8,281 bases of DNA from Candidatus Peregrinibacteria bacterium (GTDB lineage Bacteria; Patescibacteriota; Gracilibacteria; Peribacterales; Peribacteraceae), in NCBI GenBank assembly GCA_030638845.1, contig DAOWDW010000040.1, positions 1 through 8,281 of the forward strand. The letters are read 5' to 3'. This document shows, piece after piece, positions 556 to 7,081 of this stretch (positions within the stretch are counted from its first letter, which is position 1; the number at the start of each line of letters is the position of its first letter). Under the pieces are notes generated by a model that saw only the letters and a program-made list of their open reading frames with translations, had not been told where the DNA came from and did no database searches. Both the position numbers and the translations under genes were made by a program.

Positions 556-1446
556 ATGTGGCTTTTTTATGCGCTATTAACGCCATTTTTCTTCGGGATA
601 GTACATGTTTTAGATGAACATTGTGTTGATGAAATTTTTGAGAAGCCATGGATAGGGGTAGTGACAGGTGCCATAGCTTCTATGGTTGTTTTTTTGGGAC
701 TTCCATATTTAGCACCAGTTTTAAATTGGGTCGTTCCAACCCCAAAGATATTAATTTTTGCACTATTATCTGGGGTACTTATTCAAGGGAGTGTATTTTT
801 ATATTTTAATGCCCTTAGATATTCGGAAGCGGGGATAGTCGCAGCATATTGGAATATGGTTCCAGCGTTTGTTCCGATTATAAGTTTTTTTGTTTTAGGA
901 GAAATATTAAACGGAATCCAATATATTGGAATAATAATTTTAATAATTGCATCAGCTTCTTTATGTTTACTTGATGCCAATATAAGAACTAGATGGATCG
1001 CTTTTTTCTTAATGTTTATCAGTGCGATTTTACAATCTATAACGTTTCTTTTAGAAGACGTTGTATTTGAATCTATACCTTATTCAGAAGGTTTTTACAT
1101 AATCACGTTTGGTCTTATTCTTTCAGGATTTATACCATTATTATTTCGCGAACCTAGAAATACTATAAGAAAAAATACATTAACCCTTTCATCTATTGCA
1201 AAGTTAATATTATTTATAGAAATTATAAATTTAGCAGCATTAGTTACAACTCAAAAAGCAGTAGACTTAGGTATTCCTTCTTTAGTTGCTGCAGTTGAAT
1301 CTACCATTCCTGCTTACACATTTATAATTGGTTTTATACTTTTTACTTTAGGATCTAAATATGGAAATAGTAATAGTATTCAAAGAATAACTTCAAAACT
1401 TCTACTTGTTTGCTTAATGGTTACTGGAGTAATACTTGTTTCTTAA
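556..1446 (+). CDS. EamA/DMT-superfamily transporter, ten-helix
   Basis: This is a 296-residue integral membrane protein, the usual length for ten-helix drug/metabolite transporters of the EamA type, which move small metabolites such as amino acids or amines across the inner membrane. Two homologous halves are visible. The first ends in the characteristic block at about residues 86-138 (ALRYSEAGIVAAYWN, then P103, F111-LGE-114, and an isoleucine-rich helix). The second repeats the pattern at about 234-296 (QKAVDLGIPSLVAAVEST-P). The start at 556 opens directly into the first helix (MWLFYALLTPFFFGI), and no ribosome binding site is present. The substrate cannot be read from sequence; proximity to trp and aminotransferase genes is not enough to call it an amino-acid exporter. 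Its stop lies 4 bp from the stop of the convergent histidine kinase gene. Confidence 0.85.
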   Translation: MWLFYALLTPFFFGIVHVLDEHCVDEIFEKPWIGVVTGAIASMVVFLGLPYLAPVLNWVVPTPKILIFALLSGVLIQGSVFLYFNALRYSEAGIVAAYWNMVPAFVPIISFFVLGEILNGIQYIGIIILIIASASLCLLDANIRTRWIAFFLMFISAILQSITFLLEDVVFESIPYSEGFYIITFGLILSGFIPLLFREPRNTIRKNTLTLSSIAKLILFIEIINLAALVTTQKAVDLGIPSLVAAVESTIPAYTFIIGFILFTLGSKYGNSNSIQRITSKLLLVCLMVTGVILVS

Positions 1447-1479
1447 GGCTTTACTTAAAATCCTTTTTCTTTGCCTTAA
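1443..1479. other. Inverted repeat at EamA/kinase convergent 3' ends
   Basis: TTAAGGC (1443-1449) and GCCTTAA (1473-1479) are perfect inverted arms separated by 23 nt. They span the end of both convergent genes. The hairpin might slow polymerase or shield the overlapping 3' ends, but neither strand has a following T-tract, so I do not call it a terminator. Confidence 0.25.
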
Positions 1480-2923
1480 CCAATGGCAATTGGATTGAAA
1501 ATGTTGTTCCTTTATCTTCTTCACTAGTAAAGGAGATTTTTCCTCCGTGTGCTTCTACGGCGCCTTTTGCTATATATAGACCTAGGCCATTGCCATTTAT
1601 ATCTTGGGCATTGCTTGCACGGAATAATTTTGTAAATAGATTTGGTTGATCTTCTTTTGGTATTCCACAGCCAGTATCCGATATATAACAATATAATGTA
1701 TTACTACTTAGCTCTACTTTAATACTTACTTCTCCTTTCTCTGGAGTGTACTTAACAGCATTCCCTAAAACATTTTCTAGTGTCATTCTTAGAAGCCTTT
1801 TATCAAGCATGGCCGTAGGAAGTTTGTCTGGTTTATCTACTGTAAGTTTAATATTTTTTTCTTTTACCTTTGGATCTATAGTAGATAATACTTCTGTGCA
1901 GAATTCTTCCAAATTAACTGCAGTTCTATCTGCTTTCATTTTGTCTAATTGAATTCGAGAAACATCCAATATCATACTTATAAGATCTGTAAGATTATTT
2001 GTAATAGTGTGAATAGCTTGTACATGTTCTTTTTGATCTTTTGTTAGTTTCCCAACATCACCATCGAACAATGTTTCTAAGTACCACTTTGCAGATGCAA
2101 CAGGAGTTGCTAGCTGATGACTAACTATACTTAGAAGATTATCTTTTTGCCTATCTATCTCTTTCATAGCCTCTACTCTGTCTGTGTACATACGCATTAG
2201 AAGAAGCGATAGAAGAAGTATTAGTAGAATAAGAAAGAAAATGAATAGTAAAAATGGAAGCAGTGTTGCTTGTGTTTGTATTCTAAAGTCCGTAACTTCT
2301 ACATCTATACCGAGTATAGCAACTGTATATCCATCTTCATCTTGTATTGGTGCGTAAGCTGCCATGAGTAGACCCCATTGGTCTCCTTGAAGTTCTTTAT
2401 CTACAGAAGGATGATAAAAAGCTTCATCTCGAAGCACAGGGTATTCTTCTATTTCGTATGGATCTCCTGGCATTGGTGGATACTCCCATTCATCTATTTC
2501 TCCGCTTCCATCCTCGTCCAATTCATCAATTGGTATTAGTGAATCGGCATCTGCTACAAATTCTACAACCAACGGATCGTCCGTTCTTCGCATTATATAT
2601 ACATATTGAATGCTATGATTTGCATCACGAATTTTATTTAATTGATCTACGATAAGTTCCATTTCTTCTTTTTCTGAGTCTTCATATTTTTGAATAGCTT
2701 TAATGTTTTCAGAATCAATTTGTGTTGCTGCAGTCGATACAATAGCAACTAATCTATCCTGTAGTCTTTCGGTTAATAGGCGTTGTGTATAGTTATACAG
2801 AACGTATGTTGTTAATCCGGCAATCATTGTTGTAGCTGTTAATATTCCAGCTAAGCGAAAGGTATTCTTTAGTGAGAATTTATCTTTATTTTTCCTTTCG
2901 GTCGAGTTTTTACTCTTTTTCAT
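1451..2923 (-). CDS. Membrane sensor histidine kinase with extracytoplasmic Cache/PDC-like sensor
   Basis: This 490-residue kinase is anchored by helix 1 (about 22-46) and helix 2 (about 219-243). Between them lies a 170-residue extracytoplasmic sensor ending in APIQDEDGYTVAILGIDVEV, a pattern typical of PDC/Cache-like domains. Residues 136-147 (DEDGSGEIDEWE) match the EF-hand loop with ligands at positions 1, 3, 5, 9 and 12. The catalytic core is complete: H-box SHQLATP with H269 as phosphoacceptor, N-box around N388, G1 box DTGCG at 416-420, G2 box GNGLGL at 444-449, and KGTTF at 471-475. No HAMP or PAS domain is present, and helix 2 leads straight into the dimerisation helix. Its neighbour upstream on the same strand carries a homologous sensor. 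No response regulator is visible. The start at 2923 follows an extended -10 box by 6 nt; MKKSKNSTERKNK is a normal positively charged cytoplasmic N-terminus. Confidence 0.92.
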   Translation of the reverse strand: MKKSKNSTERKNKDKFSLKNTFRLAGILTATTMIAGLTTYVLYNYTQRLLTERLQDRLVAIVSTAATQIDSENIKAIQKYEDSEKEEMELIVDQLNKIRDANHSIQYVYIMRRTDDPLVVEFVADADSLIPIDELDEDGSGEIDEWEYPPMPGDPYEIEEYPVLRDEAFYHPSVDKELQGDQWGLLMAAYAPIQDEDGYTVAILGIDVEVTDFRIQTQATLLPFLLFIFFLILLILLLSLLLMRMYTDRVEAMKEIDRQKDNLLSIVSHQLATPVASAKWYLETLFDGDVGKLTKDQKEHVQAIHTITNNLTDLISMILDVSRIQLDKMKADRTAVNLEEFCTEVLSTIDPKVKEKNIKLTVDKPDKLPTAMLDKRLLRMTLENVLGNAVKYTPEKGEVSIKVELSSNTLYCYISDTGCGIPKEDQPNLFTKLFRASNAQDINGNGLGLYIAKGAVEAHGGKISFTSEEDKGTTFSIQLPLVKAKKKDFK

Positions 2924-2929
2924 CTACTT

Positions 2930-2938
2930 AGTATAGCA
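2930..2938 (-). promoter_or_regulatory. Extended -10 element of the histidine kinase gene (leaderless)
   Basis: The minus strand reads TGCTATACT, fitting TGnTATAAT with one mismatch, and only 6 nt separate it from ATG 2923. A start site 7 nt past the box falls on the A of the ATG, so the predicted mRNA is leaderless. The kinase may therefore be transcribed on its own as well as by read-through from the TrmB-like gene, whose stop is 53 bp upstream. The -35 region is poor (TTTAAA at 17-bp spacing). Confidence 0.4.
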
Positions 2939-2976
2939 TATTTGACATACTTTTTAAAGTAGTATTTCCACAACTT

Positions 2977-4485
2977 TTAGGTTTTACGTGCGAATATAAT
3001 TGCTCCTGCGAATTGGCTAATAAGTAGAATAATAAAAATTATTGCAAAGTATATAAGTGGGGCAAAATCTTTTATTGTTAATTCAAATACCTTAGATGCA
3101 TCCATATCTGTACCTAGTATAGCTACGGTATTCCCAAAGGAATCTTTAATTGGTGCATGACCAGAAATCCATGTCCCCCAAGGATCGTGAACTGGTTTTT
3201 TATCTGCAGAAATATTTCCTTTTAATGCTTTTGAAACGGCTGATGTTTCTGGATATTCATCTAACCAAATGTGTCCTGGCGCAATAGTATCGTTTCTAAG
3301 ACCATCCTCATTGTGGTCTTCTTTGTCACGAATATTCATTGAATCAGCATCTACTACAAATTCATAGTAATATTTACTATTTGTTGGACGAAGAATATAT
3401 GCATATACAATATCTGGATTTCTATCCTTAATTCCACTAAGTTTTCTAAGCACATTAAAATATTCATTCGACATGGCATCTTGCCAGTCATTAATATTTC
3501 TTATGTCCTGCCACGAGAAGTCTTTAACGGCATTGGCAGCTATAGAACGAACATGATCTCGCACACGTTCTGTATTTAGATAATAATTTTGCTTATATAG
3601 AGAATATGTTATTCCAGTTGCAAAAAGAGCAGCTCCAATGCAAACAAGAGCAAATGTTTTTATTTTTAAAGGCCATATATGCATTTTCTCTTCTATAATT
3701 TCTTTTCCCTCCCCTTCCCCAATTTCTCCATCCCAATAATTTTGAAATACACCTCTTTCACCTTCTGCAAGTTCTGGGAAGTGCATAAAAAAAGCTTGCT
3801 TTTCAGAATGTTTAAAGCAGGCTACACAATTTCCGCAGAGAATTTTCTCAAATGGAATAGGGTATTGTGAAAGGGGGAGAAGTACTGTTTCTCTGTTATT
3901 AAAAGCATCTTTAAACTGAAAACGTTTACCAAGAGGCGTGTCGTGAGTTAGCACGCGCAGCGCTATACCGCGCTTGCGGCGTGATCGAGTGAATTTAGAT
4001 AAAAATTCACTCAAAGGATTATCTTCCTCTTTTTGGGTTAGTGGCAGAAATTGCATTAATTCTTTGCAACCCATATCGAGTAGTTGCATGTATGCTTTTT
4101 TAATACCTTCTTCTCCGTCGAAATATTCAACTTTAGGGCGAGAGCCATTTGCATCTATAGTTTGAACAAACGAGGCAAAATCATCCTTCTTTCTAATTAA
4201 ACTCTTTGTCTTTTTTTGTACATCTTCTTCTACCCATTGGACTATGGCTTCCAAGGATGTAAGTACAAATCTTACTGAGTTATTTATGGTCTCTTTTTTA
4301 AAAATATTGCGCTGTAGGAGCTTTTTCATGGCTTGATCTAATACCCCTGTACTTTTGCCGGTTAGGATAGCGAGTTCACGTAGAGATTGAGGCTTTCCTC
4401 CAAGGGAATGTCTTAGAATAAGCAATTCCGTCTGGCTGAATCCAACCTCCTTTAAATGTGCCTCTATACTTGCAGGTAACATCAT
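2977..4485 (-). CDS. TrmB-like winged-helix regulator fused to membrane-anchored extracytoplasmic sensor
   Basis: This 502-residue protein has four parts. Residues about 10-75 form a winged helix (SLRELAILTGKSTGVLDQAM is cut here to its core SLRELAILTGKS; recognition helix about 45-57). Residues about 80-110 are a charged, coiled-coil-like linker. Residues about 117-252 resemble the effector half of TrmB-type regulators (YFDGEEGIKKAY, then RGIALRVLTHDTPLG) and carry C217-GN-C220-VA-C223. A membrane helix at about 274-296 precedes a sensor at about 297-473, and a second helix at about 474-499 ends the protein. The sensor is homologous to that of the downstream kinase: shared TER-x2-D, YAYILRPT versus YVYIMRRT, EFV-x-DADS, EYP, WG, and API-x-D-x2-G-x-TVAILG-x-D. 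It should be a one-component, membrane-tethered transcription factor in the manner of CadC/ToxR, but with the TrmB fold. Two adjacent ATGs (4485 and 4482) could start it; no Shine-Dalgarno sequence is seen. The targets are unknown. Confidence 0.85.
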   Translation of the reverse strand: MMLPASIEAHLKEVGFSQTELLILRHSLGGKPQSLRELAILTGKSTGVLDQAMKKLLQRNIFKKETINNSVRFVLTSLEAIVQWVEEDVQKKTKSLIRKKDDFASFVQTIDANGSRPKVEYFDGEEGIKKAYMQLLDMGCKELMQFLPLTQKEEDNPLSEFLSKFTRSRRKRGIALRVLTHDTPLGKRFQFKDAFNNRETVLLPLSQYPIPFEKILCGNCVACFKHSEKQAFFMHFPELAEGERGVFQNYWDGEIGEGEGKEIIEEKMHIWPLKIKTFALVCIGAALFATGITYSLYKQNYYLNTERVRDHVRSIAANAVKDFSWQDIRNINDWQDAMSNEYFNVLRKLSGIKDRNPDIVYAYILRPTNSKYYYEFVVDADSMNIRDKEDHNEDGLRNDTIAPGHIWLDEYPETSAVSKALKGNISADKKPVHDPWGTWISGHAPIKDSFGNTVAILGTDMDASKVFELTIKDFAPLIYFAIIFIILLISQFAGAIIFARKT

Positions 4486-4626: not shown

Positions 4627-4689
4627 ATGAACTATACAGAAATTAAAAAGCTTGTAAAGTATATTTTACTTAAATACAAATTTAAGTAG
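4627..4689 (+). CDS. Possible 20-residue basic microprotein
   Basis: ATG at 4627 opens a 20-codon frame (MNYTEIKKLVKYILLKYKFK) ending in TAG at 4687-4689, overlapping the last codons of trpR on the other strand. A TATCAT box at 4614-4619 sits 7 nt before the ATG, the same spacing as at trpR. The peptide would be short, lysine-rich and amphipathic. Short frames like this are common by chance in AT-rich DNA, so the call is weak. Confidence 0.12.
   Translation: MNYTEIKKLVKYILLKYKFK
4667..4688. other. Perfect 9-bp inverted repeat at the trpR 3' end
   Basis: TACTTAAAT-ACAA-ATTTAAGTA has 9-bp perfect arms and a 4-nt loop and encloses the trpR stop codon (4682-4684). In RNA it would be an AT-rich hairpin protecting the 3' end of the trpR message. 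Neither flank is a T-tract, so termination by this element alone is doubtful. Confidence 0.35.
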
Positions 4690-4972
4690 GCTTGGAAAAT
4701 AATTTTTCAATGAAAAATTTAAATCCACCTGTTCCATATTTTAAGAATCTAGATCCTCTAGTAACCTTACTAATGCTTACATTAAGATCTTTTGAAATTT
4801 GCCTTTGTGTTTTTCCAGATGCAAGTTGCTGAACAAGTTGCCATCGTTCTGCTATTGATTCTATCTCTTGTGGAGTTAAAATATCCTTTAAAAGCATATT
4901 TGCTTCCTCTTTTGTTTCTATTGATGCAAATAGAATGCAAAGCTCTTTATAATGGCGTAATGGTACAGTCAT
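4682..4972 (-). CDS. trpR: TrpR-family tryptophan-responsive repressor
   Basis: This 96-residue all-helical protein aligns along its length with enterobacterial TrpR, minus the first few residues. LLKDILTPQE (27-36) corresponds to the helix C region. The helix-turn-helix spans about 55-75: TQRQISKDLNVSISK followed by VTRGSRFLK, where TRGS-x2-LK is the family signature. From the family's known tryptophan pocket (E. coli T44, R54, R84, S88), the equivalents are T33, R43 and R72, but the Ser88 position is F76. TrpR binds DNA as a dimer when loaded with tryptophan and represses trp genes. The gene is divergent from trpE, and a canonical-looking operator lies at the trpE promoter, which argues against the poorly characterised YerC/YecD branch. 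A TATCAT box lies 7 nt upstream of the ATG, so the mRNA is probably leaderless. Confidence 0.88.
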   Translation of the reverse strand: MTVPLRHYKELCILFASIETKEEANMLLKDILTPQEIESIAERWQLVQQLASGKTQRQISKDLNVSISKVTRGSRFLKYGTGGFKFFIEKLFSKPT

Positions 4973-5031: not shown

Positions 5032-5060
5032 TTGACTATATTAAAAATAATAGTTAGTAT
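5032..5060 (+). promoter_or_regulatory. trpEG promoter
   Basis: TTGACT (5032-5037) and TAGTAT (5055-5060) are separated by 17 bp, the optimal sigma-70-type spacing, with 5/6 and 4/6 consensus matches. The start site would be near 5067, inside the operator, leaving a leader of about 16 nt before ATG 5083. This placement rules out translation starts at TTG 5032 or ATG 5059, which lie inside the promoter. Confidence 0.6.
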
Positions 5061-5061
5061 G

Positions 5062-5085
5062 CATGTACTGTTACGTAAGTACATG
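5062..5085 (+). promoter_or_regulatory. Trp repressor operator (trpO-like) overlapping the trpE start
   Basis: CATGTACT (5062-5069) and AGTACATG (5078-5085) are perfect inverted arms around 8 bp. The inner 18 bp, GTACTGTTACGTAAGTAC, keep the GTACT-N8-AGTAC layout of enterobacterial Trp operators: as I recall, the E. coli trpR operator and the trp operator consensus have these half-sites at this spacing. The site begins 2 bp after the -10 box, covers the predicted transcription start, and its last three bases are the trpE ATG. It is next to a divergent trpR gene. Binding would block initiation directly. Confidence 0.75.
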
Positions 5086-6480
5086 TATTTTCCACTTATC
5101 TCCATATCAGTTCGACCAGAACACTGCGATCCTCTTTACCTTATGAGAGGGCTCGGAACTAATCGTAATTATTGCGCTCTTTTAGAATCTGCAGATAGAC
5201 ATAGCAAGGCGAATGACTATTCTTTTGTAGCTCTAGGGGCACGAGACGTAATTACAATAAATGATGGTATGGTTAAGGGGTCCAAATTTGTTCCAGATGG
5301 AAAAGTTACAGATGCTTTATCTGTTCTTAGCCAGACTATTGGTACAGGAGCAGAAGGAGAGAGATTACGAATGGGGTATATTGGTTTTTTAAGTTACGAA
5401 GCAGCAAGAAATTTTGAAGATATAAATCTAGATCCACACCCTTCGCTACCAGATTCCCAGTTTGTTCTACCAGAAATTCTTCTTAAGATTGATCATAATC
5501 TACAGGAAGTTACTATTATTGCTCATAGAGACACAGAGGAAGACTTAGAGGAGATAGAAAAATTCATTCACTCTTCACCTTTTAAAGATGACAGTAGAAA
5601 AGCAGTTACGGATTTAAGGAAAGATATTCATCTGGCTAGCCAAGAAGACATTGCTCCATATAGACAAATGGAAAAGGAAGATTTTTGTAGTGCGGTATCC
5701 AAAGCAAAAGAAAGTATTATAGAAGGAGAAGCATTCCAAATTGTAATAAGTCAGGAGTTCGTAATCCCAGATCCTCCTTCACCTGATTGCGTGTATGAAC
5801 AATTGCGTTCAATTAATCCATCGCCGTACATGTTCTTATTCAAAACACCAGATCACACTTTAGTAGGTGCATCTCCAGAAACCTTGGTTAGAGTAGATGG
5901 TGATAATATTTTTTATAGACCAATTGCAGGAACACGAAAAAGAACAGGAGTTGAGGCAGAGGATAAAAAAATGGAAGAGGAATTATTAAATGATCAGAAA
6001 GAATGCAGTGAACATCAAATGCTTGTGGATCTTGGACGTAATGATGTTGGCAGAGTCGCAAAGATTGGATCTGTTAAAGTCAGCAATCCATTCCACGTAG
6101 AAACATATGCACATGTCTTCCATATTGTGTCAGATATTACTGCACAGATAAGAGATGATGTTTCTGCATTAGATGTTGTTAGATCGGTCTTTCCTGCAGG
6201 AACACTTACAGGTTCACCAAAAATTCGTGCAATGGAAATCATTCAAAAGTTAGAGAAAGGCAATAGGGGAATATACGGAGGTGCATTCGGATATATAGAC
6301 TTTGCTGGAAATGTTGATTTTGCAATTACTATAAGAACAATGCTATTTAAAGATGGAAAGATCTCTTTGCGTGTTGGAGCTGGAATAGTAAAAGATAGTA
6401 TTCCTGAAAACGAAGATAACGAATGTTTGCACAAAGCACGTAGCTGTCTTGCGGCTATTTACCATGCGCGTTTTTCCTAA
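5083..6480 (+). CDS. trpE: Anthranilate synthase component I
   Basis: TrpE makes anthranilate from chorismate and ammonia supplied by TrpG, the first committed step to tryptophan. From ATG 5083 the protein has 465 residues, typical for the family. The N-terminal domain has the tryptophan-feedback motif LLES (33-36) with YSF at 46-48. The chorismate-binding domain (about 195-460) contains PIAGTRKR (280-287), NDQKECSEHQMLVDLGRND with catalytic-type H311, PAGTLTGSPK (371-380) and GAGIVKDS (432-439). Alanine in PIAGT favours TrpE over PabB, which has lysine there. The start was chosen over TTG 5032 and ATG 5059 because these fall within the promoter and because MYFPLISIS fits the family's N-terminus; no Shine-Dalgarno sequence is present. 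trpG follows 7 bp downstream. Expression is probably controlled by TrpR and activity by tryptophan. Confidence 0.95.
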   Translation: MYFPLISISVRPEHCDPLYLMRGLGTNRNYCALLESADRHSKANDYSFVALGARDVITINDGMVKGSKFVPDGKVTDALSVLSQTIGTGAEGERLRMGYIGFLSYEAARNFEDINLDPHPSLPDSQFVLPEILLKIDHNLQEVTIIAHRDTEEDLEEIEKFIHSSPFKDDSRKAVTDLRKDIHLASQEDIAPYRQMEKEDFCSAVSKAKESIIEGEAFQIVISQEFVIPDPPSPDCVYEQLRSINPSPYMFLFKTPDHTLVGASPETLVRVDGDNIFYRPIAGTRKRTGVEAEDKKMEEELLNDQKECSEHQMLVDLGRNDVGRVAKIGSVKVSNPFHVETYAHVFHIVSDITAQIRDDVSALDVVRSVFPAGTLTGSPKIRAMEIIQKLEKGNRGIYGGAFGYIDFAGNVDFAITIRTMLFKDGKISLRVGAGIVKDSIPENEDNECLHKARSCLAAIYHARFS

Positions 6481-6487
6481 TACAACA

Positions 6488-7081
6488 ATGAAAACACTAA
6501 TACTCGACAATTACGACTCATTTACCTACAACCTTTACCAATACGTTAGTGAACTTAACGGAGAGCCAGTAGTATATAGAAATGATAAGATTAGATTAGA
6601 CGACATTAGAGATTTAGAGCCAACCCACATTATTATTAGTCCAGGTCCTGGTAATCCTTATACAGATCGTGATATAGGTGTTTCGGAGAAACTAATCGAG
6701 TATGCAATTAAAGAGCATATACCATTATTAGGAGTATGTTTAGGGCATCAAGTTTTAGCAAAACATTTTGGAGCAACTGTTTGCCAAGCACCAGAAATTT
6801 TTCATGGAAAAGCATCCGAAATAAAATTACTGCAACCAAGAAGTGCAATATTTGCTGGGCTACCAGAAAAAATCACTGGCATGCGTTATCACTCATTATG
6901 TGTGGAAGAAAAAGGACTTCCTGATTCTCTAAAAATTACAGCTCAAACAGATGAAGGAATAATTATGGGATTAGAGCATATTGAACATCTTCTTTTTGGA
7001 ATACAGTTTCATCCCGAATCAATTGGAACACCTGAAGGGAAAGATATACTTCGAAATTTTTTACTGTGTATTACAATGTAA
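6488..7081 (+). CDS. trpG: Anthranilate synthase component II, glutamine amidotransferase
   Basis: This 197-residue class I glutamine amidotransferase releases ammonia from glutamine and passes it to TrpE. The triad is visible: C84 in GVCLGHQ (82-88), and H175 and E177 in FHPES (174-178). The N-terminus ILDNYDSFTYNL (5-16) and the oxyanion segment SPGPGNP (51-57) are typical of TrpG/PabA, and RYHSL (133-137) is the usual interface motif. ATG 6488 is preferred to an upstream in-frame ATG at 6449, because the latter overlaps trpE and adds 13 residues absent from the family. The 7-bp gap after trpE indicates one bicistronic mRNA. PabA and TrpG are hard to separate by sequence and one protein can serve both; pairing with a TrpE-type partner decides the name. 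No Shine-Dalgarno sequence precedes it, so translation may be coupled to trpE. Confidence 0.93.
   Translation: MKTLILDNYDSFTYNLYQYVSELNGEPVVYRNDKIRLDDIRDLEPTHIIISPGPGNPYTDRDIGVSEKLIEYAIKEHIPLLGVCLGHQVLAKHFGATVCQAPEIFHGKASEIKLLQPRSAIFAGLPEKITGMRYHSLCVEEKGLPDSLKITAQTDEGIIMGLEHIEHLLFGIQFHPESIGTPEGKDILRNFLLCITM

Follow-up and report, generated by a model that had tools for sequence, protein, structure and literature searches.

Gene organization of the locus

The window, an 8,281-nucleotide stretch of DNA from Candidatus Peregrinibacteria bacterium (contig DAOWDW010000040.1 of assembly GCA_030638845.1), contained two adjacent receptor genes, one encoding a TrmB-type regulator fused to a transmembrane (TM) sensor unit (the fusion) and the other a sensor histidine kinase. 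The window is contig C14 of the assembly, which comprises 808 kb in 115 contigs and is 76% complete. Both open reading frames (ORFs) were confirmed where an earlier note on this DNA had placed them, with the fusion first and the kinase second, on one strand and separated by a 53-bp gap. The note's central idea, that one sensor family serves two outputs, a kinase and a TrmB-type regulator, was supported by the analyses below.

2977..4485, minus strand: fusion, a TrmB-type regulator joined to TM-sensor-TM, 502 amino acids (ORF list; Foldseek matches to TrmBL2 and TrmB)
2924..2976, no strand: 53-bp spacer between fusion and kinase (ORF list; promoter/terminator scan)
1451..2923, minus strand: sensor histidine kinase, 490 amino acids (ORF list; Pfam; structure model)

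One sensor family on two outputs

Residues 21–211 of the kinase aligned with residues 277–464 of the fusion at 33% identity over 194 residues (BLASTP, 93 bits, E = 1e-24), so that, judged by sequence, the two sensors clearly belong to one family. The motifs that the earlier note had listed as shared (TER, YI.R.T, EFV.DADS, EYP, WG and API.D..G.TVAILG.D) were present in both. In the models, each sensor occupies the segment between two TM helices and has a PAS-like fold that includes a long N-terminal helix, which corresponds to a predicted single Cache domain with a CitA-like fold. No Pfam Cache model scored above its cut-off (dCache_2 reached 16.7 bits against a cut-off of 26.5 in the kinase, and the fusion had no match), and Cache-clan models among the aligned proteins each found one or two members, with E-values of 2e-4 to 4e-3. 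The sensors differ from the single-Cache periplasmic sensor of CitA/DcuS in sequence (11% identity) and in having an EF-hand-type loop in most members; citrate is not indicated as a ligand.

This loop was defined by the 12-residue pattern D-x-[DNS]-x-[DENSTG]-[DNQGHRK]-x-[LIVMC]-x-x-x-[DE], which we take to be PROSITE PS00018, and the loop of the window kinase fits it. It was complete in 61 of 82 sensors (29 family genomes), whereas shuffled sequences gave 0.26 on average and 4 at most. Kinases labelled as pair-type had the full loop in 16 of 19 cases, other kinases in 24 of 24, fusions in 16 of 33 and unassigned sensors in 5 of 6. Of 77 kinases, just 2 and 1 had a match to Pfam EF-hand models (E ≤ 0.01).

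A search seeded with the sensor-bearing diguanylate cyclase P0111 gave 53 proteins, P0111 included, all of which fitted the sensor profile (independent E-value < 1e-5), and 38 of which had a related D-x-D-x-D-G core. Their outputs were GGDEF (diguanylate cyclase), kinase, HD-GYP, SpoIIE-type and chemoreceptor proteins, and the few source names given were Planctomycetes, Fimbriimonadales and Fibrobacterota. A sensor family private to Peribacteria was therefore rejected. Because the family occurs on many output types, the sharing of a Cache-type sensor across outputs is ordinary, and the pairing is the point of interest.

The TrmB-type fusion and the histidine kinase

The fusion comprised the following parts.

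4261..4485, minus strand: winged-helix DNA-binding region, residues ~1–75, with the near-invariant GKSTG.LD.A.KKL (model; alignment columns)
3715..4143, minus strand: TrmB effector-like domain with a phospholipase-D fold, residues ~115–257 (model; Foldseek)
3595..3678, minus strand: predicted TM helix 1, residues ~270–297 (hydropathy; model)
3067..3594, minus strand: sensor domain, residues ~298–473, predicted single Cache with a CitA-like fold
3283..3318, minus strand: degenerate EF-hand-type loop, DHNEDGLRNDTI, residues 390–401 (loop scan)
2983..3066, minus strand: predicted TM helix 2, residues ~474–501 (model; hydropathy)

The AlphaFold model of the fusion, with a mean predicted local distance difference test score (pLDDT) of 90.4, had archaeal TrmBL2 as its top Foldseek match (5bpi_D, E = 1.9e-9) and also matched archaeal TrmB (2f5t_X, E = 5e-4). 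The phospholipase-D-fold effector domain after the winged helix-turn-helix (wHTH) places the protein among TrmB family regulators, and the presence of a DNA-binding domain and predicted TM helices in one chain places it among transmembrane transcription regulators. Archaeal TrmB and TrmBL2 share the wHTH and the phospholipase-D-fold domain and end after the latter, whereas TM-sensor-TM units follow it here. No Pfam match was found for the window fusion itself at E ≤ 0.01; PF01978 (TrmB) was matched at that threshold by 25 of 44 aligned proteins (43 relatives and the window fusion), and the TrmB copy at locus L044 scored above the Pfam TrmB cut-off. Fusion residues beyond 318 were unmatched outside the Peribacteria family among the matches listed (59-genome sample, E-values to ~8e-7).

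The kinase was divided as follows.

2288..2788, minus strand: sensor domain, residues ~46–212 (BLASTP; model)
2483..2518, minus strand: EF-hand-type loop, DEDGSGEIDEWE, residues 136–147 (loop scan)
1949..2146, minus strand: HisKA, with the phospho-acceptor His at residue 269 (Pfam; alignment)
1481..1804, minus strand: HATPase_c (Pfam)

HisKA and HATPase_c both exceeded their Pfam cut-offs, and the conserved His was present. In the H-box, SHQLATP, a Gln directly follows the phospho-acceptor His (residues 269–270, window 2114–2119), and this Gln was near-invariant among the 77 aligned kinases; an acidic residue is usual at this position. The window genome had a third copy of the sensor, on another kinase that belongs to a non-pair clade (G000:C56:9801-10343). 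The window genome had three receiver matches, in ORFs of 133–154 amino acids, all of them on contigs other than that of the window.

Evolutionary relation of the sensors

A maximum likelihood tree of 82 sensors, with a midpoint root for drawing only, resolved the pair-kinase sensors (17 rows, support 100/97), the fusion sensors (39 rows, support 100/89; 33 fusions, 2 kinases and 4 unassigned) and the sensors of other kinases (26 rows, support 100/99; 24 kinases and 2 unassigned) as separate clades. The window kinase sensor reached 60% identity with kinases from other genera, compared with 30.6% with the neighbouring fusion. In the identity ranking for the window fusion, the neighbouring kinase stood 4th among 43 kinase sensors (30.6%); in that for the window kinase, the neighbouring fusion stood 20th among 33 fusion sensors. 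The separate clades and the lack of excess identity in the window pair suggest that the split between kinase and fusion sensors most likely predates the family.

From the gene order, the earlier note had suggested a duplication that gave both outputs the same input. Adjacent genes on one strand with a gap of 53 bp would fit a recent tandem duplication of the sensor at this locus, but, barring strong rate effects on the tree, this is extremely unlikely given that the two sensors fall in separate family-wide clades (2 kinases excepted), with no excess identity in the window pair or within genomes. The note's further expectation, that the two sensors would resemble each other more than random Cache domains do, held in so far as they form one family; the window pair was, however, no closer than the fusion was to kinases elsewhere. 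Mixed dimers between the kinase and fusion sensors, also raised in the earlier note, would be conceivable for adjacent genes of one sensor family, but are very unlikely in view of the deep divergence of the separate clades, and tandem sensor copies in one regulator would favour contacts within the protein.

In two genomes, G029 and G019, a fusion-type sensor was found on a kinase whose core falls in the pair clade, and the trees thus indicate that sensors have moved between the kinase and regulator outputs. Gene conversion within genomes was rejected, as no excess of identity was seen in ten genomes; the G029 kinase, with its fusion-type sensor, stood at 46.7%.

Conservation of the pair

The neighbourhood survey covered 35 named TrmB loci, of which 33 came from sources named Peribacteria, Peribacter(aceae/ales) or Peregrinibacteria, one from a 'Patescibacteria group' and one from a 'bacterium'. 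Ten of these were not assessable, as they extend no more than 2.5 kb past their last TrmB gene; the remaining 25 represent 23 metagenome-assembled genomes (MAGs), two of which gave two loci each. A same-strand sensor-kinase was found downstream of the TrmB gene in 19 of the 25 loci, with no ORF between the two in 4 loci, one in 10, two in 4 and three in 1, these counts being approximate as ORF calling was mechanical. The pair is thus conserved in relatives, a point on which the earlier note had made its reading depend, and the genus-mate G001 carries it with a kinase core identical to that of the window. Five further loci had a downstream kinase that lacks the sensor, and only at L122 (1 of 25) was no downstream kinase found. 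The cores of the sensorless kinases fell in the same clade as those of the pair kinases (37 rows, support 100/98), and an N-terminus with 8–9 predicted TM segments, without a Pfam family above cut-off, replaced the Cache sensor.

Sensorless pair-clade kinases: L095:14213-15865, L096:13920-15608, L103:9692-11368, L105:15261-17033, L110:16418-18184

The two proteins might instead be independent receptors for different ligands, which share an ordinary Cache module and are neighbours only by inheritance of the locus. The spread of the sensor family over GGDEF, kinase, HD-GYP, SpoIIE-type and chemoreceptor proteins is consistent with this, as are the ~31% identity of kinase and fusion sensors both within and between genomes and the presence of a pair-type kinase without a TrmB gene in G006 and G030. 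It is nonetheless rather unlikely, since the neighbourhood is kept in 19 (24 if replaced inputs are included) of 25 loci despite 0–4 intervening ORFs, and since fusion-type sensors were exchanged onto the kinases of G029 and G019.

Variable sensor number on the regulator

Among 50 distinct TrmB domains, 10 were followed by no sensor, 14 by one, 22 by two and 4 by three. Each sensor came with about two TM segments, and the tree requires 19 changes in sensor number. For genes truncated by the end of a contig the sensor count is a minimum, and several zeros carry caveats: L055 is at a contig end and L054 beside one, L048 and L109 are frame-split, and L051, L057 and L122 stop in or shortly after a TM helix. 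The loss of the regulator's TM helices and sensor was clean in G022 and G033, where no remnant was found besides the kinase's own sensor and the kinase gene lies 14 bp (G022) and 87 bp (G033) after the sensorless TrmB gene. The second TrmB copy of G027 (L044:6730-8376) carries no sensors but ends in 293 residues that contain seven predicted TM segments; homology of this multi-TM input with that of the L105 kinase was not supported, as no significant match was obtained (E = 0.03). At L048:4939-6773 and L109:9992-11338, from two MAGs, TrmB and sensor are in separate ORFs, which may be assembly errors or decay.

Such cases bear on whether kinase and regulator make up one signalling unit, in which the tethered TrmB regulator would take the place of a response regulator and the kinase would act on it through contact or phosphorylation. 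At 33 of the 35 named loci, an in-house profile found no receiver domain up to six ORFs away from TrmB. Kinase core and TrmB remain together when either is sensorless, and the regulators of G022 and G033, which lack TM helices and sensor, still precede a sensor-kinase at the short distances given above. There is also a precedent, in that ChiS and TfoS are described as interdependent and TfoS activity as needing ChiS (PMC7564644). A single unit is still unlikely: the TrmB part is without a receiver domain, receiver proteins are encoded somewhere in all 33 family genomes searched, and sensor loss, seen in only a few cases, may be neutral.

An inverted repeat shared with DNA-uptake genes

Of 52 distinct regions upstream of TrmB genes, 29 had an exact match to the inverted repeat GTTCY-N10-RGAAC (shuffle mean 0.05). 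The repeat also occurred upstream of comEC in 20 of 30 genomes and upstream of dprA in 9 of 29 (a denominator that includes L252, read in a wrong short frame). ComEC, DprA and ComFC are given as core com genes of Patescibacteria (PMC10633639). The repeat was absent from the upstream regions of 55 sensor-kinase, 32 PilT and 32 LigA genes, and present in 2 of 20 of those of EamA genes. It was found before the best-scoring ssb gene in none of 28 genomes, a check that used one match per genome, mostly two-domain genes, and includes L281 and L300, read in wrong short frames; the second ssb genes of G024 and G030 had a site ~130–180 bp upstream.

The narrower form GTTCYA-N8-TRGAAC had 142 sites in 36 genomes, compared with 14 for the reversed pattern, and 44 of 63 sites read were outside ORFs, compared with 19% of random positions. 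The window genome had three (C28:7562-7581, C57:2293-2312 and C92:11480-11499), of which one lies 99 bp upstream of a comEC-like gene. Pfam-checked genes behind sites encoded ComEC-like Competence (window genome and G031), SSB, lamin-tail, PIF1-type helicase and Y1 transposase proteins, and two phosphoribosyltransferase-type proteins behind sites, one above and one just below the Pfam cut-off, were read as ComF-like.

A repeat common to the TrmB gene, comEC and dprA ties the regulator gene to a likely DNA-uptake regulon. Because the window and G001 lack the site before their TrmB genes, and because the comEC site is independent of TrmB, the TrmB gene is best called a member of this putative regulon in many family genomes; that TrmB is also its regulator is something we infer. 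The TrmB protein may or may not be the binder of the repeat. TrmB as the only binder was not supported, as comEC keeps its site in 5 of 9 genomes without a TrmB gene.

The repeat did not look like a repetitive extragenic palindrome (REP) or a miniature inverted-repeat transposable element (MITE), as the flanks of 25 G024 sites were information-poor (means of 0.07 and 0.15 bits over 70 columns on each side). Six of the 63 sites precede Y1-transposase-like genes (assigned by clustering, one member Pfam-checked), and some sites may belong to transposase-linked repeats. In G024 the repeat was present 28 times, in many cases with an identical inner octamer (L172-L191, L207-L210); five of the copies read precede Y1-transposase-like genes, and operator and mobile repeat may overlap there. 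At L152, L162, L164 and L192, a second dyad, similar to TTGGCTT-N4-AAGCCA(A) and often imperfect, was seen by eye ~7 bp after some repeats. A dyad before the window TrmB gene, CGATAT-N5-ATATCG, also found by eye, was judged to be at chance level. At 18 of 35 named loci, PilT lay no more than two ORFs upstream of TrmB, which had pointed to pili as targets; this reading was rejected, as the repeat preceded none of the 32 PilT genes and no PilT gene adjoins in the window.

Neighbouring genes and intergenic signals

The window pair is flanked on both sides.

556..1446, plus strand: EamA-family transporter, convergent with the kinase (Pfam)
4682..4972, minus strand: TrpR-family repressor, upstream of the fusion (Pfam; neighbourhood survey)

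At 15 of the 25 assessable loci, an EamA relative was among the first six ORFs downstream of TrmB, and G001 has the inverted repeat before its EamA gene. The TrpR-family gene, from which trpE- and trpG-like genes (window 5032-7081) diverge, is a local neighbour outside the conserved module. G029 has a TrpR 58% identical to that of the window, ~2.8 kb before its fusion. Between window positions 1400 and 5100, promoter-like matches (15 observed, 15.1 expected) and terminator-like matches (2 observed, 1.8 expected) were at chance level. The scan listed two overlapping promoter-like matches in the 53-bp gap (2930-2958, minus strand) and no terminator-like site there (2924-2976).

Comparison with known systems

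The earlier note's statement that no system with this pairing has been described was too strong, as ChiS/TfoS (PMC7564644) and Rsp (PMC10269533) are comparable. Vibrio ChiS, a sensor kinase, and TfoS, a membrane transcription regulator, form an interdependent pair for natural competence (PMC7564644), and the window pair may work in a similar way, with a membrane kinase and a membrane-tethered one-component regulator. The chitin-induced output of ChiS/TfoS is the competence genes (PMC7564644); here the tie to com genes would follow from the shared repeat. Unlike ChiS/TfoS, the present pair occupies one locus and has a TrmB-type DNA-binding part; its two proteins carry one sensor family.

Transmembrane transcription regulators are a known class, treated in an article whose main text does not contain the terms TrmB and Cache (PMC10269533). 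Neisseria Rsp joins a PilS receptor to a PilR DNA-binding domain (PMC10269533) and, like the fusion, places a kinase-type receptor on a DNA-binding protein. The likeness is one of architecture, and the present system differs in its TrmB-type DNA-binding part, in having both proteins in one locus and in its 0–3 regulator sensors. Sulfolobus ArnR and ArnR1 are membrane-bound one-component regulators of type IV pili, with a kinase, ArnS, and resemble the fusion in their N-terminal HTH and C-terminal TM helices; pilus genes are their targets (PMC6396743). In contrast to the fusion, archaeal ArnR is described with a sensing domain beside the membrane anchors, and the parts of that source consulted do not mention a Cache domain outside the cell (PMC6396743). 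The present kinase/TrmB pairing was not found described in the literature searched, in which subscription journals were thinly covered; within that literature, the novelty appears to lie in the TrmB part, in a sensor cassette that is shared and occurs in countable copies, in the EF-type loop and in the com-gene tie.

Proposed working and significance

We consider it somewhat probable that the locus represents a conserved receptor module of the uncultured Candidatus Peribacteria, in which a kinase and a predicted membrane-tethered TrmB-type regulator pass related outside cues, through one sensor family, to two outputs. Within this proposal, the passage of related outside cues to two outputs is likely, and the control of DNA uptake is possibly among the outputs. 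The sensors, predicted to face outward between two TM helices, would bind a small ligand, aided by a metal such as Ca2+ at the EF-hand-type loop, and the signal would run through the TM helices to both outputs. In the fusion, a change in the sensor would alter DNA binding by the membrane-held wHTH; in the kinase, the signal would lead to autophosphorylation at His269 and then to phosphorylation of a free receiver protein encoded elsewhere. The upstream inverted repeat that the TrmB gene has in common with comEC and dprA in many family genomes is the reason for placing the module in a putative DNA-uptake programme.

Several results weigh against this proposal. Kinase and fusion sensors were on average 31.2% identical within genomes and 30.7% between them (ten genomes, G029 left out; permutation p = 0.15), and likeness within genomes, being no higher than between them, does not point to a common ligand. 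In the window fusion the loop, DHNEDGLRND, departs from the usual residues at positions 8 and 12, and the full loop is kept in only 16 of the 33 fusion sensors. Other inputs replace the kinase sensor in 5 of the 25 assessable loci, and only 2 of the 35 named loci, many of which are cut by contig ends, had a receiver gene up to six ORFs away from TrmB (in-house profile). The repeat is present before comEC in the window genome and G001 and absent before the TrmB genes and the dprA genes of both. It precedes comEC in 15 of 21 genomes with a TrmB gene and in 5 of 9 without (Fisher p = 0.43), an independence that speaks against TrmB as its only binder, and sites also precede genes with no evident DNA-uptake link (GIY-YIG, 23S-intervening protein and RNase Y).

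A more far-reaching version appears doubtful to us: a response-regulator-free unit that controls natural transformation in Peribacteria, with kinase and TrmB protein as co-receptors and a Ca2+-dependent Cache sensor as an exchangeable cassette, present in 0–3 copies on the regulator and swapped onto and off the kinase, that tunes DNA uptake.

Saccharibacteria are naturally transformable and require comEC for this, and the main text of the article concerned does not contain the word stem 'regulat' (PMC10633639). For the control of the timing of DNA uptake in Patescibacteria, the locus offers two paired receptors, together with a candidate operator and a set of candidate targets. The natural series of regulators with 0, 1, 2 or 3 sensors, and of kinases whose sensor is swapped or replaced, provides material on how inputs are rewired between one- and two-component outputs.

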